Below, piece after piece: positions 1 through 54,687 of a DNA stretch of 64,000 bases. The stretch is from Polytrichum commune. Lineage: Eukaryota > Streptophyta > Polytrichopsida > Polytrichales > Polytrichaceae. The position numbers were made by a program, and so were the translations under genes. The notes under the pieces are model-generated. The model did no database searches. It saw only the letters and a list, made by a program, of their open reading frames with translations, and had not been told where the DNA came from. The first letter of the stretch is position 1. Each line of letters begins with the position of its first letter. The DNA lies in assembly GCA_950295325.1 (NCBI GenBank), contig OX485808.1, positions 34,120,527-34,184,526 of the forward strand, given 5' to 3'.

Positions 1-451
1 GGTCCAAGGTTTGCGATGAACCCCATCAAGATCTTCAGTGGTAGTTTTGGTGGTCAAACTCTATACGAGAATCCGTTTTATGTTTCACCAAACCTGGTGA
101 GTATTTTATATCCTTGTGCCAGCTTTAAAATAAATAAATTCATGGGTGTTAGTACTTTGCTCATTGCTACATCTCAAAGAGATCACAGCTAGATGAGGCA
201 AGGCAGAATGTGCCACACCACAAAGTATGCAGTTGTGTCTAAATTAATTTTCTCAACAACTTGTTTGTTGGAATTGCATACCCTCCAAATTGTAACTTAA
301 TTATTACTTTGTGCAGGAGCGATCAATGGAGAAGAGGAAGAAGGCTGGCAAGTATGCTAAGAAAGTCAAAGCTAAACAAAGGCGTAAGAATTATGTGGTT
401 GCCAATCAGCTTGAGCCTAATGAGCTTGCTGATGTTTGGGATGAGGATTAG
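1..451 (+). CDS. BRX1: BRX1 ribosome-biogenesis factor, C-terminal exons (copy A, partial)
   Basis: Two exons are visible. Exon 1-96 reads GPRFAMNPIKIFSGSFGG and on to YENPFYVSPNL, then a gtgagt donor. Exon 317-451, after a gtgcag acceptor, reads ERSMEKRKKAGKYAKKVKAK and on to LEPNELADVWDED and TAG. This is the conserved C-terminus of BRX1, a Brix-domain nucleolar protein needed for 60S ribosomal subunit assembly: end of the Brix fold, the YENPFYVSPN strand, then the basic KRKKAGKYAKK tail. The upstream exons lie left of the window. Compared with copy B at 45 kb the reading frame is uninterrupted, so this copy could be functional, although the missing 5' exons cannot be judged. Identity rests on recalled family sequence, not on a search. 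Confidence 0.85.
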
Positions 452-3400
452 AGTGATTTTAACAGCTTCTTATTATCCCTAAATGGGTACTTTGCCACCT
501 CTTTAAATTCTTTCAATGCAAGTACTAAATCAGGTGAATCTTGGCAGTACTTAGTAGCTTGGCTGGAAGGGAACATAATCCACCACAATTTTCGTGTAAA
601 TCATGTTGCTCAGAGTCTAGAATCGCTTGCATTCTTGGGCTTAGTGGAGTAGGACTAGAATCATACGATTGCACTTTGAATTTGTAACTTGTAGGGCTTT
701 GCAGGGAGTTAGATTCGAGTTTACAGGGAACCTTATATATTTCATGTCTCTGGGAGAATTATACACACTTCAGTTTTTAATTGAAAAGCACAATTTTGAG
801 TACTAGGATTGTTAACTTTACACTGTTGACCAAATGTGAGTTGTTATTTAGATTGTGGCAGTTGTGAATCAGTTTATACATCATTTCTGTTTGATGGCAA
901 TTTCTCCATGGGTCTTTTAAAACTGGGATGTTCATGGCCTTTCACAGGTTTACACGTCCATGAAACATCCGACCACTGAGAAAGTGTTGCATGCCTAACT
1001 CACATAGTACATACACCATGGCTTGTTTTCAGATACCTATCGACACCATTAGAGTCAGGCATTGGACTCGGCACTTCACCCATATTGGGCATCTAATCCC
1101 TTCCTACATCAGAAGCACCCTCTGCATGTATCGCTAGTTAAACCTGTAACTGGAGGACACCTAGTACTATCCTTATATGTCTACGGTGCATAGACGGTTG
1201 TGGCTTTGGGTGAAATTGGGGTTGGTATTGAGTGAGTTAACTAGGGTATCTCTTATGTTTTATTTAGAATCATGCATACAAAAGTTTTAACGGCTCATTT
1301 TTTTTAAGTGAGTGGAGTGTTGTGTTTTCGTGGGGGGTGGTTTGGGACAAAGCTAGGTTGATTTTGAGTGGAAATGAGGGCGGTTTTGGGTGTTGTTTGC
1401 AGTGCACAAAAGTGGGTCCAGGGAGGGATATAATTAGCTAGGGGCAAGTGATTTCAAAAGTTTGTAGTATCTCAATGTGGAATTTATTTTGTTTTTGTTT
1501 CTACCATGTCTAAGGTAGTTGAGCCTAAAACCGACATTTTCAAAAAAAATCTATTGTAGGCAGGTTAAATAGATTGGAAATTTTTCAAAAAAAGCCCTAC
1601 ATCTACAAATCTATACAATTTACCTAGTGATTTTCAAGAAAGAACAAATTGGTATGCAACTTACAAAAATTTGGAAAGTCATTTGAAGAAATGAGCCTTT
1701 TACTCTCCACTAGAGGGGTCCATTGATGTTGAATTCCTAGGTGAGAATCACCACAAAGTCAACATTATTGTGGGTGAGTCTTTTATTAAATGAAGGTGTT
1801 GCCCCCTTTTGTGGCACACTTCTTACACATGGCCTCGTTGAGTGGATAGATTCTAGATTTCCAATTAGCTAGGGTGATTGGCCAAAGTTGGTGCTCTTCT
1901 TTAGAGCGATCTTGCTTTCTTCTTACGGTGCTTCTATTGGTTGTAGTGGTGCTATTTTGTACTTAATGCCATATAGGCTTAATCACTTTCATTAATAAAT
2001 TACTCAATGGCATACTTGCACTCACTTGTTGATGGCTTAAGGATGAAAAATAGGTGTTGCCAAAAGGAAGGTGTAGCCAAATTGCTTATCCAATCATGTA
2101 TACCACTAATCTATGTGGAATTTGAAAATAGGCTTAATGAACCATAATGGTTGGTTTAACCCCTAACTTTCCAAGTGACCATGGTTGCTGGATGATTTCC
2201 TCCCTACATTAAATCTCATCTACCTTATTCATCTGTAATCAAAATTACTACAAACTTCAAGCCAATATGAATATTTGGACAACTGACTTGCCAAATTTGG
2301 AGATGATTAGAATGTTTAAACATGAATTAGTCATGTTTTTGTTGTGTTGGGAGCTCATGTGAAGGTGTTCACTCCCATCGAAGGTTGCCACTCGGATGCA
2401 AACTTTGCATGAACATCAATGATGTTATTTTCGGCAGAAGTGAATTTTCTTTGATGTTCTTGTAAATATGTCCTTCATCCTCAAACCCATTTTTAACTTC
2501 AACTTTTGTACACTCTTTGAATCTTAAGGAATTCTTTGCAAATATGTAGCTAGATATATGGGACAATTTGCACACCCCAATTGCAAGGTGGCGAGTTCAT
2601 TGTGGTTTGCATGTTTTTGGCCCGAGAATTTGTGGAGGTGCTCAACTATTGGATTGTTTCCATCTAGTGGTCACACAAGCATTCCACTCATTTTCTAGGT
2701 GGGTTTGATTGGTCAAAGGTTCTTTATTGGGGCTAAAACAAGACAAGTTTTTGATGTGCACCCCTTCCTTCAAATGTTATAATTTGAAAATCTAGATGGT
2801 CCTTCATATCCCATTTCCCCCCTGCAAATAGCTCATCTCCCATGTTTCAAGATCCTACATATATGTCCCACTTTAACCTCAAACCTTGTCCATGAAAATT
2901 CCACAAACAACATTGAGTGAATTGCACTCAAAACAACCCTTTCATAGCCTTGGGAATTCGAGCATTAAGCACCCTCTACCTCACTTAACATCTCAATTTA
3001 GGATTCCCTATCAATAAGGTATGTGGCAAATTTGTTGTTGGGTCAGTTTGGGAATTGTCTCTTTTGATTAGCAATTATGAGTAGGGCAATTCGTCATTTT
3101 AAGGGTCTAAATCAAAGTTGCAATGCAATGTTATAGGAAGAAAAAGTGATGATTCTCTTCTTTAAGTGATTGCTTAGGCCCTCCCAAATGTGTTCACCAT
3201 TGAACCTAAAATGATGTCTAAATTGAGCATATAGCCTAGTCTCAATGGAGTTATCCTATCTCGACACAACATTTGAACGAGAATTAGTTGATTTGCATAC
3301 AAGACCTTCCATGTTCAAGAAATTTTTGGTACAGGCTTGGAGGTAATGTGGAATTTGAACAGAGAATGTTCGAAATCTATCCATTGAAGGTCAAACTCAC

Positions 3401-5510
3401 ACTGAAATGAGTTTGGCCCTCAATGAAGCAAACATGGTTGCTCTTCATTTAAATTCAAAGTTCACTACATACCTCCGAGCATGCATTGTCACAAGTAGAA
3501 ATATATTATTGATTTTTTGTTCTGCAAAACAACCAATGGAAAATCATAAAGGATCAACTTCCAATGAAAGGTCCCAATGAGTAAATATTACTTTGATGCA
3601 ACACATGTTTTTTTTTGTGTTAGTTCTTAATTCTAAGTAGGTTGCCCATAAATATCACAGTTTATTGCCGTTATCACTCAGGGTTATGTTTCCAATCAAA
3701 AGAAGAGCAATCACACAAGGTTCACGTACCTTACATTGGTGACCCACTAAGTGAAAGGGAATTGTTGCACATGAGTGCACCTCTCATTCATCTAGCATAA
3801 AAAAATATAGTTATCCTTTAGGTCTCTCAAAAACTCATGTTTTGATAGGGAGATTTGGCCTTTCTTTGACAATTTATATTGTTTAAGGAGTATTCACGTG
3901 GGGCTGGGACCCTCAATTATGGTGAAGCGCAAGTGTTTGACTTAGGCCAAGAGATGGTTCTATAAAAATAAATTCATTTCAAACTTTTGAGGGCACAACT
4001 TAAGTTTCAAAAGTTTGCCATAAAATTCATTTTTATACGACTATCTTTTTGCCAAAGCCTAATGCCTCCCCTTCGTTTCACCAAAGTTGGGTGTTCCAGC
4101 ACCACTTGAATGCTCCTGAAACATTAGAAATTGTAAAAAAAGGAGCGAAACTCCCTTCCAAAATATGAGCTTTTGAGAGACCTTAAGGATAACTCTAATC
4201 CCAACAAATATTTCGTTGAAACTATGCAAGCAATTGACACTAATAGAAATGTGGTACTTACCGGGATGACATGACCACCTAGTAACAGGAAATGAATAGA
4301 ATAACACCTACATCTTGGCGACTTCCTATTAGATGGTCATGCCATGTGGGTAGGTACCACATTTCTACTACACCACTTATAATATTTAGTGTGACATACA
4401 TTATCTGTGAAGGGCCTAAACCAAATGCCTAGAGGTCTCAAAATGTCACGTCCGCTAATTGCCAACATGATACTACAAAACGTCATCGATATAAGTAATT
4501 TTTTTATGAGAATGTTTTTTATTAGTAACGTTTCTATTAGTTTTTGAGAGATTGTAAGGATGACTCTAATCCCAATAAATCGCACACTTATACCATGCCC
4601 ACCCTAAGGCTACCCATTGCTCCTAGGCAATACGAGGAGTCCCTCTTGATATGGAAAATGCATCTCTTTCCGAAATTTACTGCTATCAATAAGGATTCCT
4701 CCTCATACTCACAGTAACCTCACTAGATGCAACATAGTGTAGTTTCGCCGGTGCATACAAGACAAGAACTCTTATCAAGATGGAAACTCTCCCAGTGGTG
4801 CGGGCCGGTCGCATGTCCTAGTGTGGGCATGGTATTAAGAGGGGAATGTGGTTTTGCCACGAGAGGCTCCATCCTAAAATCATAGTTTGAATGTTTGGAA
4901 CAATCGATGTTTATAAGATTACCTATATGACATATTACATTGGAAATTTCACTGAACTTCACCGAACCTTATTCATTAAGTTCTGACATGCATTGCCTAG
5001 ACCCTATTACCACTCAAAGGCAATCTCCACAACGCCTCTATCCCATGACATGGGACAGGGCCAACAAATATTTTTGTAGAAATGGAGGAGGCAATTGGGT
5101 GTGGATGTGGGTGGCAGGCAATGTTCAAGATTGAAGTCTTCAATGCCCTTCAAATGCAATTTGGCCCTTTCAAAATATACCTCTCTCAAAACAACCCTTC
5201 AGGACACAACCCCAAATTGAAAATGAAGACGTCACTTGAAGTCCTCAATATAATTTGCGCACCACAAGAACCAACAAGCGTAGGACATTGTCACTACAAG
5301 AAGTGGAGTTAGATGATTGGTTCTTAATTTTTCACATTGTACTGCAAACATGTGCCATATAATTCATGCACAAGTTTAATATGAGTTTTGTATTTCCTTA
5401 CTATATTCTTAGATTGGCATCTTGGATTTGAACCAACCCTTCAATTGAAGGGCTAAAATTTGAGAGCCCTTCAAAATGTAACTCATATGAGGGCTTCAAT
5501 CTTGAACACT
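452..5510. other. Intergenic DNA of the duplicated segment, copy A
   Basis: No convincing gene. Positions 452-3149 align almost line by line with 46362-48777 of copy B, with small indels. Positions 3150 to about 4944 are absent from copy B, whose sequence jumps from the equivalent of 3149 to the equivalent of 4945; the junction shows only a GA overlap. This A-specific block contains an inverted repeat (about 4241-4288 against 4322-4372) and, from about 4366, one end of the TGGTATTTAGTGTCA-type repeat described elsewhere. From 4945 to 5510 the alignment with copy B (about 48772-49340) resumes. The short open frames here are not conserved between the copies. Confidence 0.6.
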
Positions 5511-5516
5511 GATGGC

Positions 5517-5740
5517 AGGCAGGCAGGAAGGAAGGAAGGGAGGAAGGAAAGAAGGAAGGCAGGGAAGGAAGGTGCGTTAGTAGATAAAGAAACAGGCAGC
5601 AGGTGCCTCTCACAAGATTGGCAGTGTGGCAGCCTCGCTCCGCCACTGCTTTGCTGTTCCGAACTCCCCATCTCCTCTCCTCGCACGACGATCCATGCTT
5701 CTTCGGATCGGAAAGGAAAGGAAAGGAAAGGAAAGGAAGA
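5517..5740 (+). repeat. GGCA/GGAA and GGAAA purine microsatellites upstream of aldolase copy A
   Basis: A run of GGCAGG and GGAAGG units (about 5517-5573) and a later run of GGAAA units (about 5708-5740) precede the aldolase first exon. Copy B carries the same two tracts at about 49349-49411 and 49555-49578 with different unit numbers, so the tracts predate the duplication and have changed length since. They would lie in the promoter or 5' leader of the aldolase gene. Confidence 0.8.
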
Positions 5741-5790
5741 ATTCTTCACAAACACGTACGGAAACACTCAATCCTCAAGTGAAACGCACA

Positions 5791-6042
5791 ATGGTGATGG
5801 CGGCATCCGATCCGCTGGCCTGCAACGGAGCCTGTTCCTGGGGATTCATGGCTGGACCGCTCCCGCAAAGCCACTACAATTCAGCAGGGCTCCTGCCCAT
5901 CTCCACAGCAGATTGTGATGCCGCCGGAGTTCGAGAGCACCAATCCATACACGGAGGAGCTGAGGCGGACGGCCTCCTCCATCTCGCAGCGAAGCAAGGG
6001 CATTCTGGCCTCCGATGAGAGCAATGCCATCACTGGCAAACG
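5791..6042 (+). pseudogene. Plastid-type class I fructose-bisphosphate aldolase, first exon, broken (copy A)
   Basis: The exon begins ATGGTGATGGCGGCATCC and ends ..ITGKR before a gtcagt donor. The second half reads PPEFESTNPYTEELRRTASS followed by ISQRSKGILASDESNAITGK, the conserved N-terminus of class I aldolases (glycolysis and Calvin cycle; the GILASDES segment is family-wide). The first half is transit-peptide-like when compared with copy B. Two frame errors separate them: a 5-nt ATCCG duplication near codon 7 found only in this copy, and a one-base deficit just before IVMPPEFE shared with copy B. No later aldolase exon exists here, because the region that holds one in copy B (54.7 kb) is deleted. 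I call it a pseudogene fragment. Confidence 0.8.
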
Positions 6043-8048
6043 GTCAGTAATTATGCTTACTTCACCAATTGTGCTTTCACTCTCAGCTGCTCACTAAGTT
6101 GGATTATGGTGCTCTGATGTTTGTTTTAAACGCTCAATATTGCTCAGGATGGATTAATTGTTGCAAGCCTAGAAAGTTCTTCAATGAGAACTCTGCACTG
6201 ATTCCAAGCATGCACCGGAAACTTACTGAACGTGGAAAGTTTTGTATGCAAAACAACTAACTTCCAACCCAAACTATGTTCAAATTAAAGGCTCACTCTA
6301 ATGATTTGGAATTGTTGTTAGGTCCAGGAAGCCAAACGGCTTATGGGACTAGAAGTACATGAAGACAGTGTCAAAAAACCTTTTTTCGTAATGGACACTT
6401 GGTACCTGGCCCACACAATAAATGCACATTGGTGCTCAAATCATTCCACACAACTTCTAGTATACTCACAAGTTTTAAGACTTCCCACTTCTCCTAGAAC
6501 ATTAAAAATTGTATAGTATAAAATGATTTTAGCAAATCCAAATTGAGGTTGTAGTCATTCTTCCTCATAGTTTCTGGAGCTCGTATGAACATCTTATTCA
6601 TTATCAAAGCGGAGATTTGTTTCTTCTGTTGCACATGCAGCATCGAGTGAACAGCCTACATTTCCAACAAGGTCAACTCACATGTTTCCCGACTTCCGAA
6701 TGAGTACAAGCTACCTGTTAACTCCACCTTTGAGGTATTTGATTTCTTCAAAAATAGAAAAGGGTTGTATGTGTGTAAATGATTTTACAATTTATCAGTA
6801 ACATGAAGATAGGCGGATCTCTTGGGGCATTCAGTGCTTGCGGTCGCTTGTTGATGATGAAACCCTAAGTTTCTCACAGTGTTTGACTCTGACCTTGGGC
6901 AACAGCGTGATTCTTGAGGGCATCTTGCACTCACCTCAACCAGACCAAAATACATACAAATCAGTGTCTGGGGAGATTATTTTAGTCAAAATTCTAGTGT
7001 TTCCAAGTCCAACCAGTTACATGTCTTGATCTTTCAGTTTGTTCTTTATTGAGTTGAGGTATATTCCATAGATTCCTTGAAAATGATGGGTTATTATAGT
7101 TAGGGTTTTGCTATCACTCAAATATTCAAACAAAAACAACCCAGGGTACAGGATCACAGGGAAGACTAAGCTAGTGTTTATAAGGGTTAATGTCACATTG
7201 GATGAAGGATTAGAATAACAATCTAGGTCTTTCCATCCTTTCACTCCTTCTTTTTAAGCTTAATCTCTGCTCTTATAATTCCTTGTGTTTTCTTGGTCAT
7301 GTGTGAATACCGTCCTAGGTGCATGTGGACTTCTATCACTCTAATTCCATCCTCTAATCAGTCACGAAGCTCAATAACTTGGCAAATTGTCAATGGCTAA
7401 TTTTTAGGACAAAGTCTAGGGTAATATCTTTGAATACCACATCGTCTGTAAATGTCATGAATTTTGCTTTACAATTATCTCAAATTTAAATCCTCTTAGT
7501 TCAACTTACAGTCATTTGGGCATTCTTCCAAGACATACTTCCATTCAACAACAAAATCAACAATCAAAATTCCACTTCAAAGTCAATTGCATTTTGACAA
7601 ACCTTTACTCTCAATGTTTGAGTTTACAAGATAATTAAGAGTCCGAATCACTTGGCTCTTTCAAAATAATTCTACATCTACAAGCATCTTGCTTGAATTT
7701 TGCCTAATGTTAAGCATTCAACCTCAATCCTTGAGTGTTGAACCTTCAAGGAAGCCTATTGCTTCTAACTTGAGACTACGCCGGATTCTACCTTAACAAA
7801 ATAGCATGATTCTCCGGTGGCCGACCTCCTTCTTATTAGAGGGGAGGATAAGGTGGTTACAACAACCATCTTGAAATGGCAATAGCCCATTGAACCCACT
7901 TAGGATGAATTTCTAACTGCCTATTGCTTGTTGATTCTCACTTCTCTATGAAATTTACCTATAGGCCAAGCTATAGCCAAAAACTCGAGCTTACAATAAT
8001 TGTCATGAAGTCTTGAACTTCAACCGGTTATTTTTCAAACTCAAACGA
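6043..8048. other. Intergenic DNA between aldolase fragment and NLR locus, copy A
   Basis: No gene seen. Positions 6043-6170 match 49873-50000 of copy B, then the match jumps to 55800-57712 of copy B at the shared word agaaagttct, so about 5.8 kb present in B is missing here. Within this stretch lie the two halves of a split dispersed repeat (about 6966-7085 and 7998-8078), described separately. The rest is AT-rich sequence without recognisable domains. Confidence 0.6.
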
Positions 8049-8078
8049 TTCATCTATAACTAGCAGTCGGTTCTCCCA
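6966..8078 (+). repeat. AACCGGTT-rich dispersed repeat split by a ~0.9-kb insertion (copy A)
   Basis: The left part (ggggagattattttagtcaa to ..aaaatgatggg) and the right part (gtcatgaagtcttgaacttc to ..ctataactagcagtcggttc) are consecutive in the unsplit copies at about 22.47-22.73 kb, 26.21-26.43 kb and 30.19-30.39 kb. Here they are separated by about 7090-7997. The insert ends show weak inverted similarity (TTATTATA.. against TTATTGTA..), compatible with an old TIR element. Copy B has the same split, so the insertion predates the duplication. The repeat's right edge here is fused directly to decayed LRR sequence at about 8078. Confidence 0.6.
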
Positions 8079-8424
8079 ATGTCTTTGGTACTTTCATCAA
8101 GCTCGAGCAACTTGCCAAATACAATCTCACCAATGTAGTCAAGTTGCCCAATGTCTTGGGACTTCCTTCAACCTCGAACAACCACTCAAGTCCAATGTCA
8201 CCAATGAAGTCAAGTTGCCCAATGTCTCTGGTAATTCCTTCAAGCTCGAGCAACTTGCCAAATTCAATCTCACCAATGTAGTCAAGTTGCCAAATGTCTC
8301 GGGACTTCCTTCAACCTCGAACAACCACTCAAGTCCAATGTCACCAATGAAGTCAAGTTGCCCAATGTCTCTGGTAATTCCTTCAAGCTCGAGCAACTTG
8401 CCAAATTCAATCTCACCAATGTAG
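8079..8424 (-). pseudogene. Out-of-frame LRR array 3' to the fused NLR gene
   Basis: These are LRR-coding repeats on the - strand that lie past the stop codon of the last NLR exon. They are organised as 143-bp dimers of the 72-bp LRR unit: the word gagcaacttgcc recurs at 8105, 8248 and 8391. Because 143 is not a multiple of three, each dimer shifts the frame by one base, and each carries the same one-base loss that turns VPETLG into VPRHW/L. The defective dimer has therefore been amplified, which indicates decay under unequal exchange rather than coding use. The left end abuts a truncated dispersed repeat. Confidence 0.7.
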
Positions 8425-9240
8425 TCAAGTTGCCCAATGTCTCGGGACTTCCTTCAAGCTCGAACAACCACTCAAGTCCAATGTCACCAATGAAGTCAAG
8501 TTGCCCAATGTCTCTGGTAATTCCTTCAAGCTCGAGCAACCACTCAAGTCCAATGTCACCAATGAAGTCAAGTTGCCCAATGTATCCGGTATTTTTTTCA
8601 AGCTCGAGCAACCACTCAAGTCCAATGTCACCAATGAAGTCAAGTTGCCCAATGTCTCCGGTACTTTCTTCAAGCTCGAGCAACCACTCAAGTCCAATGT
8701 CACCAATGAAATCAAGTTGCCCATTGTCTCTGGCAATTCCTTCAAGCTCGAGCAATGACTCGAATATAATGTCACCAATGAAGTCAAGTTGCCCAATGTC
8801 TCTGGCAACTCCTTTAAGCTCGAGCAAGCTTCCAAGTTCAATGTCACTAATAAAGTCAAGTTGCCCAATGTCTCCGGTATGAATTCCAATGCGTTACAAT
8901 CCATTAAGGTAAGGTATTGTACCATCTTAAGGGTTCCAATTTCAAGTGGAAATTGTTGCAAATGCACAAACCCCTCCATCTCCAACACACGCAACTGTTT
9001 GAATGGAATGAAAAATGATGGTTGCAACTCTTCAATTTCTTCACCATCATATTGGCTAAAGCTCATGCTTATCCGCATCCACCTCAATTTACTCGCATTC
9101 TTCATTGTTTTGTAAAAATAATCCAAATTCTTACAATCGTTGATATGCAAGAGCCTTATGTTTGCCATTTCCAAACTTGTAATCATATCATAATTACAAT
9201 GAGATCCAGCCACATGAAGACCTTCCACATTTTGTATCAT
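8425..9240 (-). CDS. Exon 5 of the fused NLR: second LRR domain, frameshifted end
   Basis: Opens with the same MIQNVEGLHVAGSHCNYD linker, nearly identical at DNA level to exon 3. About six 24-residue LRRs follow (NLTSLVTLDLSGCSSLKK type). The last repeat has lost one base, so VPETLG becomes VPRHWAT and then stop at 8425-8427. More LRR-coding DNA lies beyond the stop but out of frame. The stop therefore arose by array decay rather than being an ancestral C-terminus. The loss may still be tolerated, because LRR number varies widely in such genes. Confidence 0.8.
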   Translation of the reverse strand: MIQNVEGLHVAGSHCNYDMITSLEMANIRLLHINDCKNLDYFYKTMKNASKLRWMRISMSFSQYDGEEIEELQPSFFIPFKQLRVLEMEGFVHLQQFPLEIGTLKMVQYLTLMDCNALEFIPETLGNLTLLVTLNLEACSSLKELPETLGNLTSLVTLYSSHCSSLKELPETMGNLISLVTLDLSGCSSLKKVPETLGNLTSLVTLDLSGCSSLKKIPDTLGNLTSLVTLDLSGCSSLKELPETLGNLTSLVTLDLSGCSSLKEVPRHWAT

Positions 9241-12200
9241 CTGCATCAACCACGACACAAATCATTATTTATGGTAGTACATTAAGTGTGTGGATTTTTC
9301 CATATTCTATGGATTGATTAAAAAACCTTCAAACATGTACGTTTATTTCCCTTACATTTCTCTACAAAGAATCTTATAAGTGCAAACTCAACTTCATCAA
9401 ATTTAGACACTTTATGATTACGAAACTAGACAAAGATGATGGATATATTCATTTACCATGCTCGCATTAGATTTGGTGGGCTCAAACTCATCCAAATTCC
9501 AAATTCTTTGTCCTCCAATATGCTCTTTGCATGCTATCATACGTCCCATGTCACGTAAATGATCATGCATTGTTAACATCCCATCCGAATCGATTTGCAC
9601 AAGACTTCGGTCCATGAGATTCACAAGTGCACAATGTGCGTTACTATCATCACAATCCCATATTTTCAACGCCTTCTCTTCTTCCATCCCTTGCTCGAGA
9701 ACATCGCGACAAAAAAAACAAGCAATGTCCAAAAGCATATTTTTCTCTTCTTCATCCAAATTATCGTAGCTTATCCTCAACGTTCTAAATATCCTTTCGT
9801 TGTCCCAACTATCACCAAGGCATTGTCCCCTCTGTAATCTTCGCAATGCTTGTTGCCATACCCTAGGCCTTTGAACTCCACACAAATAACCTCCCAATGC
9901 TTCCAAGCTCAAAGGCAAACCCCCACATGCTTTGATGACTTTGTTGGCAACTGTTTCAAATTGCGGCCCTTGAGGTCGTTGATGTAAAAATGCATGCTTG
10001 TAGAATAGCTCCTTTGCTTGATCTTCGTCCAATAACTCCATGTCTATCTTTCCATTGTGTGAACTACAAAGTGTTTTTAAGTCTTGCCAATTTCGGCTTG
10101 TGGCAATGATCTTGCTACCGTTAGCAAACTTCCACTTAGATGAAACTAGCCCATGGAGTTGTTCTCGAGAGGCAACATCATCAAAGACAACAAAAACTTT
10201 TTTCCTCTCAAATATCTCTTGTAAGTACTTGAACCCCTCTTCCGTGGTGTTTATGTACCTCTCGTACTTGAGATCCTCCAACAATTGTCTTTGTATATCC
10301 AAGATGTTTTTGGAGTCTCTCATATTTGCCACAAAGCTTGTTGCTTCAAAGCCTTGATGCACACAATGAAGAATGGCCTTTGTCAAAGTGGTCTTTCCAC
10401 TTCCACCCATCCCGACGATGCCTAGAAATTGATTGGATTCTAGTTGAAATAACACGTTTGACATTTTCTTATCAATATTGACAAAGTGAACCGGGAGTGA
10501 CGGTAATGAATGTCTGGACTGCACTTGTGATGGAAGTATTCGGTTTGCCCATGACAATGGTGCAGAAAGCTGAAAACCCTATACAAACAAAATTTGATAT
10601 TAGATATTGCTATGACACGTAAGTTAGAATAAATGCAAAAGAGTATGGTTTCTATGAATGCTATCAAAGTATACCAAATGGATACAACAAGCTAAATTGA
10701 TTATATTTGTTACTCCATTTGAAAGTTGATGTGAACAAAATTCTAAACCATTTAATATATTGTTAGGATTAATACCTTGGTATGAATTTGATTTGTATGT
10801 TGGGCCTCATTAGCTTCTCTCCCCTCCAAATTCGGTGTCCTCCAAAACTGTTTGCACAAATACATGACGTCCTGAGGCAAAATTGAAAACCTTTGAAACA
10901 AGGTTGTCTCCAATAATTCCCTCAAGTTCCAGCAACCATGCAAGTCCAATGTCACCGATGAAGTCAAGTTGCCAAATGTCTCCGGTAATTTCTTCAAGTT
11001 CCAGCAATCATGCAAGTCCAATGTCACCAATGAAGTCAAGTTGCCCAATGTCTCCGGTACTTTCTTCAAGCTCGAGCAACCACTCAAGTCCAATGTCACC
11101 AATGAAGTCAAGTTGCCCAATGTCTCCGGTACTTTCTTCAAGCTCGAGCAACCACTCAAGTCCAATGTCACCAATGAAGTCAACTTACCCAATGTTTCCG
11201 GTACCTTCTTCAAGCTTGTGCAACATCGCAAGTCCAATGTCACCAATAAAGTCAAGTTGCCCAATGTCTCCGGTACTTCCTTCAAGCACGAGCAACCACT
11301 CAAGTCCAATGTCTCCAATGAAGTCAAGTTGCCCAATGTCTCTGGTACATCCTTCAAGCTCTTGCACCATCCCAAGTTCAATGTCACTAATAAAGTCAAG
11401 TTGCCCAATGTCTCCGGTATGAATTCCAATGCGTTACAATCCATTAAGGTAAGGTATTGTACCATCTTAAGGGTTCCAATTTCAAGTGGAAATTGTTGCA
11501 AATGCACAAACCCCTCCATCTCCAACACACGCAACTGTTTGAATGGAATGAAAAATGATGGTTGCAACTCTTCAATTTCTTCACCATCATATTGGCTAAA
11601 GCTCATGCTTATCCGCATCCACCTCAATTTACTCGCATTCTTCATTGTTTTGTAAAAATAATCCAAATTCTTACAATCGTTGATATGCAAGAGCCTTATG
11701 TTTGCCATTTCCAAACTTGTAATCATATCATAATTACAATGAGATCCAGCCACATGAAGACCTTCCACATTTTGTATCATCTGCATCAACCACGACACAA
11801 ATATTTATTTATGGCAGTACATTAAGTGTGTGGATTTTTCCATATTCTATGGATTGATTAAAAAACCTTCAAACATGTACGTTTATTTCCCTTACATTTC
11901 TCTACAAAGAATCTTATAAGTGCAAACTCAACTTCATCAAATTTAGACACTTTATGATTACGAAACTAGACAAAGATGATGGATATATTCATTTACCATG
12001 CTCGCATTAGATTTGGTGGGCTCAAACTCATCCAAATTCCAAATTCTTTGTCCTCCAATATGCTCTTTGCATGCTATCATACGTCCCATGTCACGTAAAT
12101 GATTATGCATTGTCAACATCCCATCCGAATCGATTTGCACAAGACTTCGGTCCATGAGATTCAAAAGTGCACAATGTGCGTTACTATCATGATAACAATC

Positions 12201-15049
12201 CCATATTTTCAACGCCTTCTCTTCTTCCATCCCTTGCTCGAGAACATCGCGACAAAAAAAACAAGCAATGTCCAAAAACATATTTTTCTCTTCTTCATCC
12301 AAATTATCGTAGCTTATCCTCAACGTTCTCCATATCCTTTCGTTGTCCCAACTACCACCAAGGCATTGTCCCCTCTGTAATCTTTGCAATGCTTGTTGCC
12401 ATACCCTAGGCCTTTGGACTCCACACAAATAGTTTCCCGATGCTTCCAAGCTCAAAGGCAGTCCACCACATGCTTCGATGACTTTGTTGGCAATTGTTTC
12501 AAATTGCGGCCCTTGAGGGCGTGGTTGTAAAAATGCATGCTTGTAGAATAGCTCCTTTGCTTGATCTTTGTCCAATAACTCCATGTCCATCTTTCCATTG
12601 TGTGAACTACAAAGTGTTTTTAAGTCTTGCCAATTTCGGCTTGTGGCAATGATCTTGGTGCCATTAGCAAACTTCCACTTCGATGAAACTAGCCCATGGA
12701 GTTGTTCTTGAGAGGCAACATCATCAAAGACAACAAAAACTTTTTTCCTCTCAAATATCTCTTGTAAGTACTTGAACCCCTCTTCCGTGGTGTTTATGTA
12801 CCTCTTGTACTTGAGATCCTCCAACAATTGTCTTTGTATATCCAAGATGTTTTTGGAGTCTCTCATAGTTGCCACAAAGCTTGTTGCTTCAAAGCCTTGA
12901 TGCACACGATGAAGAATGGCCTTTGTCAAGGTGGTCTTTCCAATTCCACCCATTCCGACGATGCCTAGAATTTGATTGGATTCTAGTTGAAATAACACGT
13001 TTGAGATTTGCTTATCAATATAGACAAATTGAACCGAGAGTGATGGTAATGAATGTGTGGACCGCACTTGTGATGAAAGTATTCGGTTTGCCCATGCAAA
13101 AAGTTGAAAACCCTATACAAACAGAATTTGAAATTAGATATTGCTTTGACACGTAAGTGACAATAAATGCAAAAGAATATGATTTTAATGAATGCTATCA
13201 AAGCACCTTGATAATCTCATTACAAAGAATACACTATTTTTAATAAGATTTCAAATTTGTATTTGGATCCAATATTTCATGAGAATGGATACAACAACAT
13301 AAATGATTATATTTGTTAGCCCATTTGAAAGTTGATGTGAACAAAATTCTAAACCATTTAATATATTGTTAGGGTCAATACCTGGGTATGAATTTGACTT
13401 GTATGTTGGGCCTCATTAGCTTCTCTCCCCTCCAAATTCGGTGTCCTCCAAAAGCGTTTGCACAAATACATGACGTCCTGAGGCAAATTTAAAATCGTTT
13501 GAAACACGGTTGTCTCATTTTCCACCTCTTGATTTCTAAGTGCAACATTCCCCCGTAAAATGGAACTTCTCAATTCTTTTAATGTTGTGCAAATCTCCTT
13601 GAACTTGGGTCTCTTTGTTCGTTCTAATGACCAACATTCGTTGATCAAGGAGACCAAAGCTTCGGGACAATCATCAGGCACCCATGGCCTCTCACCTGAC
13701 CTTAGCCTTGTAGAAAGATCATGATCAATGCCTCCAAATGGTTGTTTTCCTGAGAGTATAGTTGCACACATTACACCAAAACTGTATACATCGGCTTCAT
13801 GTGCATTCACTTTTTCCACTACAAAAGACATTGTGTTCTTTGTCTTTTGGTTGGTGTAGTGGAATAGCTCAGGTGCTTTATACAACCTCGTCCCAATACC
13901 TTGGATGAATTTCTCAGAAATGTTGCTATGCGCATCCGTTTTTGAAAGTCCAAAGTCAGCCAACTTCACATTCACATAGTTGTCCTTGTGCAATTTGTCC
14001 ACCATGATTTTATGCACCAATACATTGGCAGGTTTTAAATCCCGATGAGCAATTTTCTTCCCATGTAGATAACTCATGCCCTTCGCGATTTGTAAGATGA
14101 TGTCCATAGCTACTTGAATTCGGAAGGGTATTTTTGTTCCGCCATTTGATACCTCCTCTATCAATGCCTCCAAGCTTGTGTCTAGAAGCTCCATAGCAAT
14201 GAAACATTTGCGTTTCTCTGGTTTTTGGCCACAACATATGAATTTCACAACATTTGGATGATTGGCACTTGCAAGTATGCCTACCTCTTTCTTGAAGCTT
14301 TTGTCCCCATCTTCCATATCACCCAAAATTTGAACCTTATTTGCACACGGCAAACCAAACCAACTTGTTTTCTTTACATAGCCACATGCACCTTTTCCAA
14401 GTGGGCTTGAGCCTTGCCAACCCAATCGTGCATCAACCTCCACATGATGTCCACCATTCACATAGTTTCCTTGATTGTCATATCTTTTCAACAAGTATGC
14501 CGCAATAGTTGACTCTTCGCTAGCCACCTTGTTCTTAGAGGATGAATGCGTGGATTCTACAATTGCTTGTAATCGCGTCACCAATACGCGATGATCTTCA
14601 ACTCCTGATTCACTCATGGTGCTTAGTGAAAAACTCACATCATCTTGAAATTGGTCCAATTGTCCAACATATTGGCCTTTTAAGTGTCGATAAATATCAT
14701 CATGACAAGATTTGAGATCCATGAACAAGTCTTGGAACGCCTCTTCATTGTGGATTTGGAGCAATGCTACATGCCACCATTTCTCACCATAACAATCTTG
14801 TACCAACAACTTGGCCCTTTCAATAACTAGAAACAACTCCTTCAAGAGCAAGTCACAATTGTTAAGAAACTCATCTGTACGGGAGTAAATAATTTTTATG
14901 GTATTCGTGAATGTTTTGAGCGTTTGTGCAAGACATATGCATTGGCGTTGATTCAATGCAAATTTGGCACCACTCTCATGCACAATTTGTTGTATGCAAT
15001 CAATATTGAGTATACAAAGCCCCAAGATATTGGATTGATTAGCCATCAT
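8425..15049 (-). CDS. Kinase - NB-ARC - LRR - NB-ARC - LRR fused double-NLR gene
   Basis: Five exons: 15049-13382, 13112-11997, 11780-10776, 10578-9457 and 9240-8425 (556, 372, 335, 374 and 271 codons plus stop). All four introns are phase 0 with GT-AG ends, so the joined frame is open for about 1,908 residues. Domain order: helical N-terminal region (about 1-200), protein kinase (about 210-490), NB-ARC (P-loop near 611), LRR, a 46-residue remnant of a kinase-exon tail (about 1218-1263), second NB-ARC (P-loop near 1323), second LRR. The kinase-NB-ARC-LRR order matches the PNL immune receptors described in mosses; the extra NB-ARC-LRR is not part of that class as I know it. The start is the first ATG after an acceptor at 15053-15055, so a 5' leader exon lies upstream. 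The alternative is two genes, the second (10.6-8.4 kb) having lost its kinase exon. Expression is unproven. Confidence 0.7.
9457..10578 (-). CDS. Exon 4 of the fused NLR: second NB-ARC domain
   Basis: After a ctatag acceptor at 10579-10580 it reads GFQLSAPLSWANRILPSQ and then P-loop GMGGSGKTTLTKA, FVANMRDS, KVFVVFDDVAS, SKIIATSRNWQ, CGGLPLSLEALGGYLC, LLDIACFFC and a canonical MHD (MLTMHDHLRDMGR). Every nucleotide-binding motif is intact. The intron before it (10775-10579, 197 bp) is about 75 bp shorter than the matching introns of the other two units because of an internal deletion. It is phase 0, so it joins the kinase-tail remnant of exon 3 without a shift. The exon ends ..NASM before gtaaat, as in the other units. 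Confidence 0.88.
10776..11780 (-). CDS. Exon 3 of the fused NLR: first LRR domain joined to a kinase-exon tail
   Basis: Begins MIQNVEGLHVAGSHCNYD, a linker conserved in all three NLR units here, followed by about eight 24-residue LRRs of the form LVTLDLSGCSSLKEVPETLG. At plus-strand 10905-10910 (TGTCTC) the sequence switches to the end of a kinase exon, ETTLFQRFSILPQDVMYLCK, then FWRTPNLEGREANEAQ and IHTK, with an AAG|gtatta donor. The frame stays open across the switch. The tail matches the true kinase exon 1 end at about 13.4-13.5 kb and the copy B kinase end at about 63.4 kb. Confidence 0.85.
10905..10910. other. Recombination junction between LRR exon and kinase-exon tail
   Basis: The plus-strand word TGTCTC is shared by the LRR repeat (CCCAATGTCTCCGGTAATT) and by the kinase exon (GGTTGTCTCATT). 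To its right the sequence is LRR repeat; to its left it follows the last kinase-exon segment. This is what a microhomology-mediated deletion between tandem NLR units would leave: the start of one kinase exon and the end of the neighbouring LRR array were lost together. Confidence 0.75.
11997..13112 (-). CDS. Exon 2 of the fused NLR: first NB-ARC domain (MHN variant)
   Basis: After a ctatag acceptor the exon reads GFQLFAWANRIL and then a full NB-ARC ATPase switch: P-loop GMGGIGKTTLTKA, RNBS-A FVATMRDS, Walker B KVFVVFDDVAS, RNBS-B TKIIATSRNWQ, GLPL motif CGGLPLSLEASG, RNBS-D FLDIACFFC, and MLTMHNHLRDMGR in the MHD position. The final Asp after DDV and the DIACFF form resemble the TIR-NLR type of NB-ARC. 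The MHD aspartate, which helps hold ADP in the off state, is Asn here. In the second NB-ARC of the same gene and in copy B it is Asp. The exon ends ..NASM before gtaaat. Confidence 0.9.
13382..15049 (-). CDS. Exon 1 of the fused NLR: helical N-terminal domain plus protein kinase
   Basis: Begins MMANQSNILGLC after a T-rich tract and CAG. The first 200 or so residues look all-helical (LNQRQCICLAQTL, EFLNNCDLLLKELFLVIERA, EKWWHVALLQIHNEEAFQDL). I suspect a HeLo/RPW8-like four-helix bundle, but that is inference. The kinase domain has a glycine loop GKGACGYV (about residue 216), the ATP lysine in CANKV, HRDLKPANVLV (about 334), ADFGLSK (about 365) and the APE motif in YKAPELF (about 390). All catalytic residues are present, so it should be active. 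It is closest in style to plant mixed-lineage/TKL kinases. The exon ends ..FWRTPNLEGREANEAQHTSQ then IHTQ before a gtattg donor. Confidence 0.85.
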
Positions 15050-45926: not shown

Positions 45927-46361
45927 TGAACCCCATCAAGATCTTCAGTGGTAGTTTTGGTGGTCAAACTCTATACGAGAATCCGTTTTATGTTTCACCA
46001 AACCTGGTGAGTATTTTATATCCTTGTGCCAGCTTTAAAATAAATAAATTCATGGGTGTTAGTACTTTGCTCATTGCTACATCTCAAAGAGATCACAGCT
46101 AGATGAGGCAAGGCAGAATGTGCCACACCACAAAGTATGCAGTTGTGTCTAAATTAATTTTCTCAACAACTTGTTTGTTGGAATTGCATACCCTCCAAAT
46201 TGTAACTTAATTATTACTTTGTGCAGGAGCGATCAATGGAGAAGAGGAAGAAGGCTGGCAAGTATGCTAAGAAAGTCAAAGCTAAACAAAGGCGTAAGAA
46301 TTATGTGGTTGCCAATCAGCTTGAGCCTAATGAGCTTGCTGATGTTTGGGATGAGGATTAA

Positions 46362-49340
46362 AGTGATTTTAACAGCTTCTTATTATCCCTAAATGGGTAC
46401 TTTGCCACCTCTTTCAATGCAAGTACTAAATCAGGTGAATCGTGGCAGTACTTAGTAGCTTGGCTGGAAGGGAATGTAATCCACCACAATTTTCGTGTAA
46501 ATCATGTTGCTCAGAGTCTAGAATCGCTTGCATTCTTGGGCTTGGTGGAGTAGGACTAGAATCATACGATTGCACTTTGAATTTGTAACTTGTAGGGCTT
46601 TGCAGGGAGTTAGATTCGAGTTTACAGGGAACCTTATATATTTCATGTGTCTGGGAGAATTATAGACACTTCAGTTTTTAATTCAAAAGCACAATTTTGA
46701 GTACCTGGATTGTTAACTTTACACTGTTGACCAAATGTGAGTTGTTATTCAGATTGTGGCAGTTGTGAATCAGTGTATACCTCATTTCTGTTTGATGGCA
46801 ATTTCTCCATGGGTCTTTTAAAACTGGGATGTTCATGGCCTTTCACAGGTTTAGGAGTTGTGTTTTGTTCCTGGGACAGTTTTACACATCCATGAAACAT
46901 CCGACCACTGAGAAAGTGTTGCATGCCTAGCTCACATAGAACATACACCATGGCTTGTTTTCAGATACCTATTGACACCACTTTTTTAGTGAGTGGAGTG
47001 CTGTGTTTTCGTGGGGGTTGGTTTGGGACAAAGCTAGGTCGATTTTGAGTGGAAATGAGGGCGGTTTTGGGTGCTGTTTGCAGTGCAATAAAGTGGGTCC
47101 AGGGAGGGATATAATTAGCTAGGCGCAAGTGATTTCAAAAGTTTGTAGTATCTCAATGTGGAATTTATTTTGTTTTTGTTTCTACCATGTCTAAGGTAGT
47201 TGAGCCTAAAAGCGACATTTTCAAAAAAAGTCTATTGTAGGCAAGTTAAATAGATTGGAAAGTTTTCAAAAAAATCCCTACATCTACAAATCTATACAGT
47301 TGACATAGTGATTTTCAAGAAAGAACAAATTGGTATGCAACTTACAAAAATTTGGAAAGTCGTTTGAAGAAATGAGCCTTTTACTCTCCACTAGAGGGTC
47401 CATTGATGTTGGATTCCTAGGTGAGAATCACCACAAAGTCGGCATTATTGTGGGTGAGTCTTTTTATTAAACGAAGGTGTTGCCCCCTTTTGTGGCACAC
47501 TTCTTACACATGGCCTTGTTGAGCGGATAGATTCTAGATTTCCAATTAGCTAGGGTAATTGGCCAAAGTTGGTGCTCTTCTTTAGAGCGATCTTGCTTTC
47601 TTCTTACGGTGCTCCTATTAATGGTTGTAGTGGTGCTATTTTGTACTTAATGCCAGATAGGCTTAATCACATTTATTAATGAATTACTCAATGGCATACT
47701 TGCACTCAGTTGTTGATGGGTTAAGGATGAAAAATAGGTGTTGCCAAAAGGAAGGTGAAGCCAAATTGCTTATCCAATCATGTATACCACTAATCTATGT
47801 GGAATTTAAAAATAGGATTAATGAACCATAATGGTTGGTTAAACCCCTAACTTTCCAAGTAACCATGATTGCTGGATGATTTCCTCCCTACATTAAATCC
47901 CATCTACCTTATTCATCTGTAGTCAAAATTACTACAAACTTCAAGACAACATGAATATTTGCACACCTGTCTTGCCAAATTTGGAGATGATTAGAACGTT
48001 CAAATGGGAAGTAGTCATGTCTTTGTTGTGTTGAGAGCTCATGTGAGGGTGTTCACTCCCATTGAAGGTTGCCACTCGGATGCAAACTTTGCATGAACAT
48101 CAATGGTGTTATTTTCGGCAGAAGTGAATTTTCTTTGATGTCCTTGTAAATACGCCCTTCATCCTCAAACCCATTATTAACTTCAGCTTTTGTACACTCT
48201 TTGAATCTTAAGGAATTCTTTGCAAATATGTAGCTAGATATATGGGACAATTTGCATACCCCAATTGCAAGGTGGCAAGCTCATTGTGGTTTGCATGTTT
48301 TTGGCCCGAGGATTTGTGGAGGTGCTCAACTATTGGATTGTTTCCATCTAGTGGGTCACACAAGCATTCCACTCATTTTCTAGGTGGGTTTGATTGGTCA
48401 AAGGTTCTTTACTGGGGCTAAAACAAGACAAGCTTTTCATGTGCACCCCTTCCTTCATATGTTATAATTTGAAAATCTAGATGGTCCTTCATATCCCATT
48501 TCCCCCCTGCAAATAGCTCATATCCCATGTTTCAAGATCTTACATATATGTCCCACTTTAACCTCAAACCTTGTCCATGAAAATTCCACAAACAACATTG
48601 AGTGAAATGCATCTCAATTTAGGACTCCCTATCAATAAGGCATGTGGCAATTTTGTTGTTGGGTCAGTTTGGGAATTTGCTCTTTTGATTAGAAACTATG
48701 AATAGGGCAATTCGTCATTTTAAGGGTCTAAATCAAAGTTGCGATGCAATGTTGTAGGAAGAAAAAGTGATGAAATTTCATTGAACTTCACCGAATCTTA
48801 TTCATTAAGTTTTGACATGCATTGCCTGGACCCTATTACCGCACAAAGGCAGTCTCCACCACAACGCCTCTATCCCATGACATGGGACATGGCCAACAAA
48901 TCTTTCTGTCGAAATGGATGAGTCAATTGGGTGTGGATATGGGTGGCAAGCAATGTTCAAGATTGAAGTCTTCAATGCCCTTCAAATGCGATTTGGCCCT
49001 TTCAAAATATAGCTCTCTCAAAACAACCCTTCAGGACACAACCCCAAATTGAAAATGAAAACGTCACTTGAAGTCCTCAATATAATTTGCCCACCATAAG
49101 AATCAACAAGCGTAGGGCATTGTCACTACAAGAAGTGGAGTTAGATGGTTGGTTCTTAATTTCTCACATAATTGTACTGCAAACATGTACCATATAATTC
49201 ATGCACAAGTTTAATATGAGTTTTGTATTTCCTTTCTAAATTCTTAATTTGACGTCTTGGATTTGAACCACCTCTTCAATTGAAGGGCTGAAATTTGAGA
49301 GCCCTTCAAAATGAAACTCATATGAGGGCTTCAATCTTGA
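46362..49340. other. Intergenic DNA of the duplicated segment, copy B
   Basis: Matches 452-3149 and 4945-5510 of copy A, with the 1.8-kb A-specific block missing at about 48777. It lacks about 280 bp of copy A (near 1030-1300) and other small stretches, and has a 31-bp insertion near 46850 relative to A. No gene found in either copy. Confidence 0.6.
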
Positions 49341-49348
49341 ACACTGAT

Positions 49349-49578
49349 GGCAGGCAGGCAGGCAGGAAGGAAGGGAGGGAGGAAGGGAGGAAGGAAGAGA
49401 AGAAAGGTGGGTTAGTAGATAAAGAAACAGGCAGCAGGCGCCTCTCACAAGATTGGCAGTGTGGCAGCCTCGCTCCGCCACTGCTTTGCTGTCCCGAACT
49501 CCCCATCTCCTCTCCTCGCACGACGATCCATGCTTCTTCGGATCGGATCGGATTGGAAAGGAAAGGAAAGAAAAGGAA
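49349..49578 (+). repeat. Purine microsatellites upstream of aldolase copy B
   Basis: GGCAGG/GGAAGG units at about 49349-49411 and a shorter GGAAA run at about 49555-49578, the counterparts of 5517-5740 in copy A with different unit counts. Confidence 0.8.
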
Positions 49579-49625
49579 GAATTCTTCACAAACACGGAAC
49601 ACTCAATCCTCAAGTGAAACGCACA

Positions 49626-49872
49626 ATGGTGATGGCGGCATCCGCTGGCCTGCAACGGAGCGTGCTCCTGGGGATTCATGGCTGCACCACTCCCGCAAGG
49701 CCACTACAATTCAGCGGGGCTCCTGCCCATCTCCACAGCAGATTGTGATGACGCCGGAGTTCGAGAGCACCAATCCATACACGGAGGAGCTGAGGCGGAC
49801 GGCCTCCTCCATCTCGCAGCGAAGCAAGGGCATTCTGGCCTCCGATGAGAGCAATGCCATCACTGGCAAACG
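49626..49872 (+). pseudogene. Plastid-type fructose-bisphosphate aldolase, first exon (copy B)
   Basis: The frame from ATG 49626 gives a transit-peptide-like start, MVMAASAGLQRSVLLGIHG then CTTPARPLQFSGAPAHLHS, and runs into a stop at 49746-49748. Shifting by one base restores IVMTPEFESTNPYTEELRRT then ASSISQRSKGILASDESNAI, ending ..TGKR before a gtcagt donor. The same one-base deficit is in copy A, so it predates the duplication. An unrecognised micro-intron or internal start (the ATG of MTPEFE at 49749) could rescue a cytosolic form. The next aldolase exon lies 4.8 kb downstream. Confidence 0.75.
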
Positions 49873-52800: not shown

Positions 52801-54687
52801 GGTGAGTGGGTTTAGAGATGCGTACCTTAGCCGTGCTCCCTCCAATCCTAAATGGAAGGCTTAAGGTTAGTTAATTTACCTCAATTTTCCTCGGTTGATT
52901 TGGGCTTGATGTAGGCCGAGCCGCTACCTCCTTCCTTGCTCCACTTTCCGAGCGTCGACCTTGCCTCCTTCTTTGTAACTAGTTTGGTAGTAAGCGTACC
53001 TTAGTTAACAATTAAAATATAAAGTGTTATTCTGCACTGTAATTTAATCCTAAGCATAATATTTATACTTAGTGCACCTAATTATCTTTCCAATGATCTA
53101 AAAATCACTCTAATCGGATAAGAAATGCAAAAGTTATGAGGGTTGGAAGTATGAGGTCGATTCAACCGACCCTTCCAACCCACCTATCTACCTTCTAACT
53201 TCAAAAATTCATAGCACATTCCTTACTACTTGGATCTAGGCTTTCCTTATACCATTGGAAAGCTATGAACAAGCTCTAACTAGGAAAATTATGACATCAG
53301 CAGGTTAAGCTAATAAAAATTCAGCAGACTCCTTGTAACACAACAGTCAATCAAGAAGACTTAAACTATGTATTTCACCTTCAACAATTTATATCTAATT
53401 CAAATCTTATTCAAATCAAACGTTCTATATGACCCTGGAGAGATATTAAAAAGATGTATTTGATAAAAATATATGATTAGAAAGGTAAGCCGAAGTGAAC
53501 CCAGCAGGTCCTCTGTAATGCAGCAGTCAACCAAAAGTTCTCAAACTATGTGTCCCATCTTGCATAATTCATATCTGATTCAAATCATGCTCAAATCAAA
53601 TGTTCTAAGCCATTTTGGAAAGCTACACAAAAGTTCTACTTAGGAAAAATATAACTTCTTGGAATTAAAATTCCTATTGGGCTCGCAGGTCTGATCCAGC
53701 ACCCGCTACCCACAAGACCACCCAGTTTTTCTACTCCATCTTTGAAAATTCATAACTAATTGTCATCTTAACCAAATCACAAATGGGAAACGGCTATGGA
53801 TAGCTATAGGAAATCTCTCTAAGAGAAAAATGATAAGTATCTTGTTCTAGCTTCTGAACTAAGCCTTCAGGGCATTGGCAGATGAGGTCTACAATGCCTC
53901 CACTCAAAATTCTACCATCCAACCTACCTGTACAAAAGAAGGAATAATTTTGTTGGTGTGTTAATAAACACACATTATAACTAGGAGAGAGAGTAGAGGA
54001 GGTGCTCAAGCCTTTCTTTTAGGCCATTGAGAATGCATGCTAAAGGATTTTTTCCTAACTACATTGAAGCAGGGCTTCGCCCAAGCATTAGAGGAAGAGA
54101 GAGAGAGCTACAAGGTGGAAGGAGGGGTTTTTAAACCCTCTCACAAAAGGGTTGGACCCCTCCTCCACCGGATCCATTTTTTAAACCCTTTCCCGAAATT
54201 TTGGCTCGGGGATTTTCCCGGTTGAGGTTGCCACCCTCTCGCCGAGGTGGCTCCGACGGGGAACCTAGAAATCTTTCTAATTTTTTGCCATCGAGTTGGC
54301 AAGGGGGCAAGTGGGCAAGTAGCCCCCTTGCTCTCTTTCTTTTTTGTCTTCAAAAGTCTTCAAGCCGATTTTATCTTCTTACCTAAAACACCTCCAATAG
54401 TCTTGTGTGTCTCACACTAACGAATAAACTAACACTTGCTTAGCTAGCATTTACTAACAATTACTTAATAGCTAGCATCTACTAATATTTGCTTAGCTAG
54501 TTGTTTTTACTAGCTAGCACATTTTTTTTACTTTACTATCTTCTAGCACTACTTAGTTTCATTTTGACCTTCCTTCTTCTAGGCTAAATGCTAAATGAAC
54601 TAATTTTCCCTAAATTCCCTATCAATTCTAACTTTTAATGCTAACATTCTAACTAAAAGTGATCCCGCAGAGTGGTGGACCACTCAA
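49873..54687. other. Expanded aldolase intron with repeat insertions
   Basis: No independent gene found. Holds a repeat near 50.1-50.3 kb related to 25.25-25.45 kb and 57.95-58.1 kb (gattagtgggggtggaa, agcataaa), a head-to-head pair of AACCGGTT repeats (51.17-51.58 kb), and about 51.7-54.65 kb of non-coding sequence with recurring phrases (ggaaagcta, cagtcaa) that resembles an LTR or other non-coding retroelement part. I could not find its ends. Confidence 0.45.
51170..51580. repeat. Head-to-head pair of AACCGGTT dispersed repeats
   Basis: About 51170-51350 is a direct copy (ggggaggttttggacacaat .. gtccaaccggttacatgttg .. tgaaccggtcgtttctc) and about 51375-51580 an inverted copy (gagccggttgggtttgagat .. 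accggttcaagttcaag .. ctaaatctcccc). About 25 bp separate them, so the pair forms an imperfect 400-bp palindrome. Confidence 0.85.

Follow-up and report, generated by a model that had tools for sequence, protein, structure and literature searches.

An in-frame tandem duplication inside a kinase-headed NLR gene of the moss Polytrichum commune

Gene structure and domain layout

The window analysed here is a 64,000-nucleotide stretch of the Polytrichum commune genome (C6:34120527-34184526; 408 Mb in 64 contigs). Between 15049 and 8425 on its minus strand lies a gene of the PNL class, in which a protein kinase (PK) heads a nucleotide-binding leucine-rich repeat receptor (NLR). The second half of this gene repeats about 2.6 kb in tandem, with the joint inside the first leucine-rich repeat (LRR) array. 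There are five exons, all in phase 0 with GT-AG borders, and their lengths are all multiples of three (556, 372, 335, 374 and 271 aa, the last followed by the stop). Joined, they give a frame of 1,908 aa with no internal stop, in which Pfam finds kinase, NB-ARC, LRR, NB-ARC and LRR in that order. An initial annotation of this DNA had proposed just such a model, five exons and about 1,908 codons with one kinase and two complete NB-ARC modules, each with its own LRR. Both the re-derived exons and the Pfam matches agree with it, and its coordinates were off by two bases at most, exon 1 ending at 13382 instead of 13380.

All features of the gene are on the minus strand. Exon 1 (13382-15049) comprises an N-terminal helical region (aa 1-205), the kinase (aa 215-490) and a first copy of a linker, linker a. 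The kinase matches PF07714 (E 1e-39) and PF00069 (E 2.3e-38) and carries the GxGxxG, lysine, HRDLKP and DFG motifs. An AG acceptor stands 3 nt upstream of the ATG and recurs at the same place in all 19 other rows of the alignment, 18 of which also have the ATG; because of this an upstream 5′ exon is likely to exist, which would leave the N-terminus of the protein unfixed. The first copy of intron A (13113-13381; 269 nt, phase 0, GT-AG, donor GT at 13381-13380) leads into exon 2 (11997-13112), with the first NB-ARC domain (NB1) and its winged helix, and is followed by the first copy of intron B (11781-11996; 216 nt, phase 0). Exon 3 opens with a pre-LRR region and LRR1, which has seven 24-aa repeats by eye (10911-11780), and closes with linker copy b (10776-10904), the end of a kinase exon without its kinase, in which 111 of 119 nt are identical to linker a. 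The second copy of intron A (10579-10775) is 197 nt long, 72 nt shorter than the first. Exon 4 (9457-10578) holds the second NB-ARC (NB2) and winged helix, and the second copy of intron B (9241-9456), again 216 nt, differs from the first at 3 positions. Lastly, exon 5 (8425-9240) encodes a pre-LRR region and LRR2, with six 24-aa repeats by eye.

The two NB-ARC domains score alike (E 3.2e-34 and 1.2e-34) and both have a winged helix of ROQ1 type; the two LRR arrays score alike too (LRR_14, E 2e-27 and 5.4e-27). Among solved structures Roq1 comes closest to NB2 (E 1.9e-38). AlphaFold2 run without an alignment folds exon 3 into a regular LRR solenoid with a confidence score (pLDDT) of about 80-95 over residues 131-270. 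The pLDDT falls below 50 in the pre-LRR region and linker, and hence nothing can be inferred about the relative placement of the two modules. Long open frames also run on the plus strand opposite LRR arrays (8235-8882, 10897-11655 and 59794-60746), as expected because the 72-nt repeat is open in several frames.

The PNL class was defined in Physcomitrella and described as specific to mosses (Xue et al. 2012; PMC3352924). Its genes have an N-terminal kinase, an NB-ARC and a C-terminal LRR, and a phase-0 intron marks each domain border. The window gene has all of these, its phase-0 introns separating PK from NBS and NBS from LRR. Table 1 of that paper recognises the forms PNL, PN, NL and N, to which the window gene adds a second linker-NB-LRR in frame.

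The duplication joint

The joint can be read directly. An LRR unit of LRR1 is interrupted at TTGGAGACA, after which the linker sequence ACCTTGTTTCAAAGG begins. At the point of exchange stands GAGACA (10910-10905, counterpart in exon 1 at 13516-13511), which is common to the LRR unit and the linker and opens a codon in both alike. Since this hexamer is codon-aligned in both partners and the introns are in phase 0, the 2.6-kb copy lies in frame and brings its own splice sites. We infer that the joint formed by microhomology. On this account, a stretch of a PNL-class gene, reaching from the linker that closes the kinase exon into the LRR exon, would have been duplicated in tandem, and the new copy would have been joined at GAGACA to give kinase-NB-LRR-linker-NB-LRR. 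The linker has 23 matches in the genome. Eighteen of them close a kinase exon (17 retrieved loci and the window), one is the joint itself and four are in stretches that were not retrieved.

A separate 5′ exon for the second module, which the initial annotation had named as a finding that would speak against its model, was looked for between the modules; LRR1 passes directly into the second linker with neither a 5′ exon nor intergenic DNA. Two genes in place of one are rejected at the level of sequence, as both a kinase exon and a spacer are absent between LRR1 and linker b. Paired NLRs, a sensor with an executor, are separate, genetically linked genes, whereas here everything is in one frame on one strand. 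In holding two NB-ARC-LRR modules in a single open frame the gene instead has the predicted layout of the tandem NLRs written CNLNL or TNLTNL.

Age of the duplication and probable later homogenisation

NB1 and NB2 differ at 47 positions (14 synonymous, 33 replacement), corresponding to a synonymous divergence (dS) of 0.066. The same comparison among the NB exons of 11 other loci of the family gives a median dS of 0.075 (0.027-0.095; 52 of 55 pairs, the other three having too few synonymous changes). By these two values the duplication dates from about the time at which the close paralogues spread, and is not brand-new. Moreover, the two modules are sisters in all four tree segments (support 84/87, 75/73, 94/95 and 100/99). 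An alternative history, in which the duplication is recent and conversion supplied a foreign NB2, is less likely given that NB1 and NB2 are sisters in every segment, although weakly (75/73) in NB5.

Divergence between the modules is very uneven. It amounts to 5.7% from the linker to the NB but 0.4% from the NB tail to the start of the LRR, a ratio of 0.08, and over their first 368 nt the LRR exons show no difference at all. When 18 rows are compared in 153 pairs, a lower ratio occurs only in one identical pair, the next value is 1.04, and the median over pairs that differ is 1.65. The low divergence from the 3′ end of the NB to the start of the LRR would be best explained by gene conversion between the modules, homogenising this stretch after the duplication. 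A second, later duplication could account for the same near-identity.

The initial annotation had raised the concern that the assembly collapsed two loci here; a doubling of one locus by misassembly was considered as well. About 0.7 kb of near-identical sequence between the modules is what a misassembly of a single PNL locus might leave. However, sites differ by 4-11% in the linker, intron A and NB exon, so that this is not one locus assembled twice; intron A differs by 72 nt in length, and the joint has its own sequence within an LRR unit. Furthermore, an assembly of 408 Mb in 64 contigs was probably built from long reads, which would normally span 6.6 kb. An artefact is scarcely credible.

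The paralogue family and a second doubled locus

A genome search with the NB1 exon found at least 28 NB exons at 65% identity or more, in at least 26 loci, the next match being at 43%. These counts are lower bounds, as this search scored 110 of 454 candidates and another scan 126 of 466. Among the 126 scored, the NB pair of the window is by eye the only one on the same strand within 6 kb. Twenty paralogous stretches were retrieved (L001-L020) and splice sites compared in L001-L016. Donor GT and acceptor AG of intron B are conserved in position in 16/16 loci and the donor of intron A in 15/16 (the exception being L015, at the coordinate used), while the acceptor of intron A is conserved in 11/16. 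The five loci in which its AG is absent at the usual place are L001, L005, L008 and L012, all four with GG, and L013 with GA. The frame of the LRR exon runs to 408-925 aa in 15 of these 16 loci, in some continuing in a shifted frame, and to 165 aa in L013. Of the 13 close loci (L001-L013), 8 have a stop or a frameshift or lack the intron A acceptor. Two of the paralogues, L006 and L007 (C6:36.75 and 36.86 Mb), are about 103 kb apart and identical across the 2.1-kb module compared, which reads as a very recent duplication or conversion.

Among the matches scored, two loci carry two NB exons, the window gene and L017 (C6:29.31 Mb). The spliced model of L017 (1158-6000 of the retrieved stretch) is, like the window gene, a kinase with two in-frame NB exons, both NB-ARC by Pfam and all exons in phase 0. 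In contrast to the LRR1 and linker that separate the modules of the window gene, its NB exons are connected by sequence that reads as a hybrid B/A intron, and the protein ends in an LRR stub of 25 aa after 1,305 aa rather than 1,908.

Selection on the NB domains and the kinase

Codon changes private to a row were counted as synonymous (S) or replacement (N). For the NB exon the comparison comprised 11 of the 13 close loci, leaving aside L013 (frameshift) and L007 (equal to L006), and three more distant reference rows; for the kinase exon it comprised 10 close loci with L014 and L016, leaving aside L003 and L010 (frameshifts), L007 and L015. L018 and L020 are in no count, and L019 is only in the NB pair table and the MHD row. 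NB1 has 6 S/14 N and NB2 2 S/11 N, together 8 S/25 N, where the 11 other loci have 25 S/29 N (p = 0.044 by Fisher's test). If neutral changes are synonymous at a share of 0.24, the counts of the window gene fit neutrality (P = 0.55); those of the 11 other loci do not (P = 0.0003), and these loci are constrained. The ratio of replacement to synonymous divergence (dN/dS) between NB1 and NB2 is 0.58, slightly over the range of the 52 paralogue pairs (0.10-0.55, median 0.32). Kinase-exon dN/dS of the window gene against 13 other loci lies at 0.39-0.72, with a median of 0.45 among the others. Constraint thus appears weak, or change diversifying, and the NB domains bear no clear sign of upkeep as a working pair.

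These counts also bear on whether the second module is used at all. An ordinary PNL with a dead tail would make transcripts that end after LRR1, with NB2-LRR2 rarely or never translated. Retention of the intron at 10775 would add VLILTIY and a stop, seven codons past the exon 3 donor, and both the 2 S/11 N of NB2 and the shortened LRR2 are as such a tail might show. However, the exon 3 donor and the acceptor of the second intron A are intact, where 5/16 paralogues have lost that acceptor, and NB2 is free of stops and frameshifts. A dead tail is unlikely, if still to be reckoned with.

Switch motifs and the end of LRR2

NB1 has MHN where NB2 and 18/18 other rows compared have MHD (this comparison covers retrieved loci except L013). 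Its P-loop reads GMGGIGKTT, against GMGGSGKTT in close rows, and GMGGSGKTT is also the form in NB2. Many executor NLRs have non-canonical MHD motifs, and the autoactivity of RGA4 requires its TYG, yet NARY, a degenerate MHD, is not autoactive (PMC12405136). By analogy, changes of the MHD may often, though not always, be activating. The MHN of NB1 is the sole positive hint at a division of labour between the switches.

The stop of LRR2 at 8425 comes after a 71-nt unit in a 72-nt array, and further LRR units continue out of frame to about 8075 (8075-8424), partly as 143-nt double units; LRR2 therefore reads as cut short by a frameshift. LRR spacings before the stop in 13 paralogues are multiples of 72, except for 217 (L003) and 103 (L016), and spacings of 71 nt occur after the stop in L002 and L013.

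It had been proposed that the gene places two NLR switches under one kinase as a built-in pair. In such a pair NB1, easily fired through its MHN, would be the executor beside the kinase, and NB2-LRR2 with its intact MHD a sensor or brake in cis; recognition by LRR2 would release NB1, and exon 1 would signal. The confinement of MHN to NB1 and the frequency of non-canonical motifs among executors speak for this, as do repeats that differ between LRR1 and LRR2 and a clean frame. Nonetheless, neither NB1 nor NB2 has been under clear constraint since copying, a degenerate MHD need not be autoactive, the initial 368 nt of the LRR exons are the same, and both arrays are short beside the LRR-exon frames of nearly all paralogues. 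With private NB changes as under neutral drift and a frameshifted LRR2, the proposal is so far not supported, and a built-in pair seems very unlikely.

The N-terminus of exon 1

Among solved chains, 6lba_A (E 9.3e-41, residues 172-495) and 6ka4_A (E 1.4e-35, 151-496), which we take to be Arabidopsis MLKLs, come closest to exon 1, ahead of EGFR (E 2.8e-32) and B-raf (E 5.6e-26). The two alignments start at residues 172 and 151, upstream of the kinase domain. Within aa 1-205, sub-threshold Pfam matches are to RPW8 in 13/13 rows (best E 3e-6), MLKL_N in 12/13 and DUF1221 in 10/13; DUF1221 is another name for the HeLo bundle (PMC10951266). AlphaFold2 without an alignment gives this region four long helices at a mean pLDDT of 54. 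We regard it as somewhat more probable than not that exon 1 is MLKL-like, with a helical bundle, a brace and a kinase.

Other results count against that assignment or add nothing to it. The only N-terminal stretch aligned to 6lba (31-103 versus 27-105, in the same order) scores 3.2 bits. The N-terminal Pfam matches are all under the curated cut-offs, and the rows, being closely related, do not count as independent. A 13-row N-terminal profile searched against the PDB returned no MLKL, its best match being an unrelated regulator (0.063), with an NRG1.1-type chain at 0.2. Foldseek with the aa 1-205 model gave 0/124 matches at E ≤ 0.001. Structural alignment with VIA-align gave a best Z of 9.8 to unrelated helical proteins, which is at chance level for helical models, and neither MLKL nor RPW8 was among the best 50. 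In NCBIfam, the kinase matches of exon 1 are far under the cut-offs.

The output of kinase-NLRs is little understood (PMC10952240), and in N. benthamiana a kinase domain from Physcomitrium elicited a response that was modest and variable (PMC11218826). An exon 1 of MLKL kind could act on membranes through its bundle as well as by phosphorylation. Plant MLKLs such as wheat Pm13 have a helical N-terminus, a brace and a kinase with catalytic residues, all of which exon 1 would share if the weak matches are right, but they are free-standing, without NB-ARC or LRR (PMC10951266). We found no statement in the excerpted main texts of open-access papers that moss kinase-NLRs are MLKL-like. A bolder reading is that PNL receptors are MLKL-NLR fusions, a HeLo-like bundle and kinase, an executor of the necroptosis type, set on an NB-ARC-LRR. 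The window gene would then have one executor and two switches, an easily fired NB1 (MHN) and a canonical NB2, and the executor would be clustered on recognition by either LRR array or when one module releases its partner. We regard this as quite unlikely.

Neighbourhood of the gene

At C6:34.13-34.32 Mb a PNL NB exon is met every 30-58 kb. Within the window, 17-14038 and 45927-64000 are two units of a segmental tandem duplication, in blocks 90-98% identical and with a PNL gene in each. The neighbouring PNL (L004, 59981-64000, minus strand) reads HRH for HRD and contains two stops in the kinase exon; its NB-ARC exon is open and its LRR frame is 583 aa. An exon of a class I fructose-bisphosphate aldolase (54653-55165, plus strand; PF00274, E 1.3e-14) lies within a stretch of the second unit, 50000-55798, which the first unit lacks at the block border at 6170. 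Two more open frames near this exon have no Pfam match.

Comparison with known doubled receptors

Tandem NLR modules in one protein are known from the CNLNL and TNLTNL genes of grape and the TNTNL genes of Arabidopsis, including RPP2a, which functions in resistance (PMC3782705). These have a coiled-coil (CC) or TIR N-terminus, in contrast to the kinase exon and readable joint of the window gene. Rice Pib (PMC4917536) and a wheat Rwt4-linked NLR candidate (PMC10027608) likewise have two NB-ARC domains in one predicted protein, but are of CC type; at only 1,038 aa, the wheat candidate would not hold two full NLR units. Surveys of blueberry, Dendrobium (orchids) and Eucalyptus list NLNL gene models, and one of pepper CNLNLN, with the NB-LRR-NB-LRR order of the window gene and no kinase. 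A kinase-NB-LRR-NB-LRR gene was not found in the same body of open-access text. The architecture is less unusual than the initial annotation took it to be, as comparable doubled receptors are already known from flowering plants.

Interpretation and significance

We consider it probable that the window gene is a PNL-class gene whose linker-NB-LRR half was copied in tandem and in frame. The copy is most likely young and under weak constraint, an internal duplicate within a cluster that evolves by birth and death, rather than half of an established two-part machine. Provided that the full mRNA is produced, the protein would act as a PNL does, with a second switch module that is largely redundant. 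Recognition by an LRR would lead to oligomerisation of NB-ARC domains, which would cluster the probably MLKL-like modules of exon 1, and the clustered bundles or kinases would signal.

A number of observations weigh against so weak a constraint or so simple a history. The kinase exon also leans towards neutrality, though not significantly (6 S/20 N versus 50/102 in 10 loci, p = 0.37). None of the 47 NB changes is a stop (chance 0.07-0.10), both NB indels are multiples of three and both intron A acceptors are kept. The frame is cleaner than drift alone makes likely, against 8/13 defective close loci, which argues for some selection on it. Near-neutral ratios may also stem from diversifying selection or from conversion by an unsampled paralogue. 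Finally, sister support for the modules is modest except in the 3′ segment.

For the family, in-frame doubling comes cheaply when domain exons are in phase 0 and LRR unit and linker share a codon-aligned microhomology, and here the joint is still readable. At least two of its loci, that of the window gene and L017, have doubled their NB exon, each in its own way. If exon 1 is MLKL-like, it would provide an obvious executor for kinase-NLRs, and if the window gene is transcribed it would be a natural experiment on two NLR switches held in one chain.

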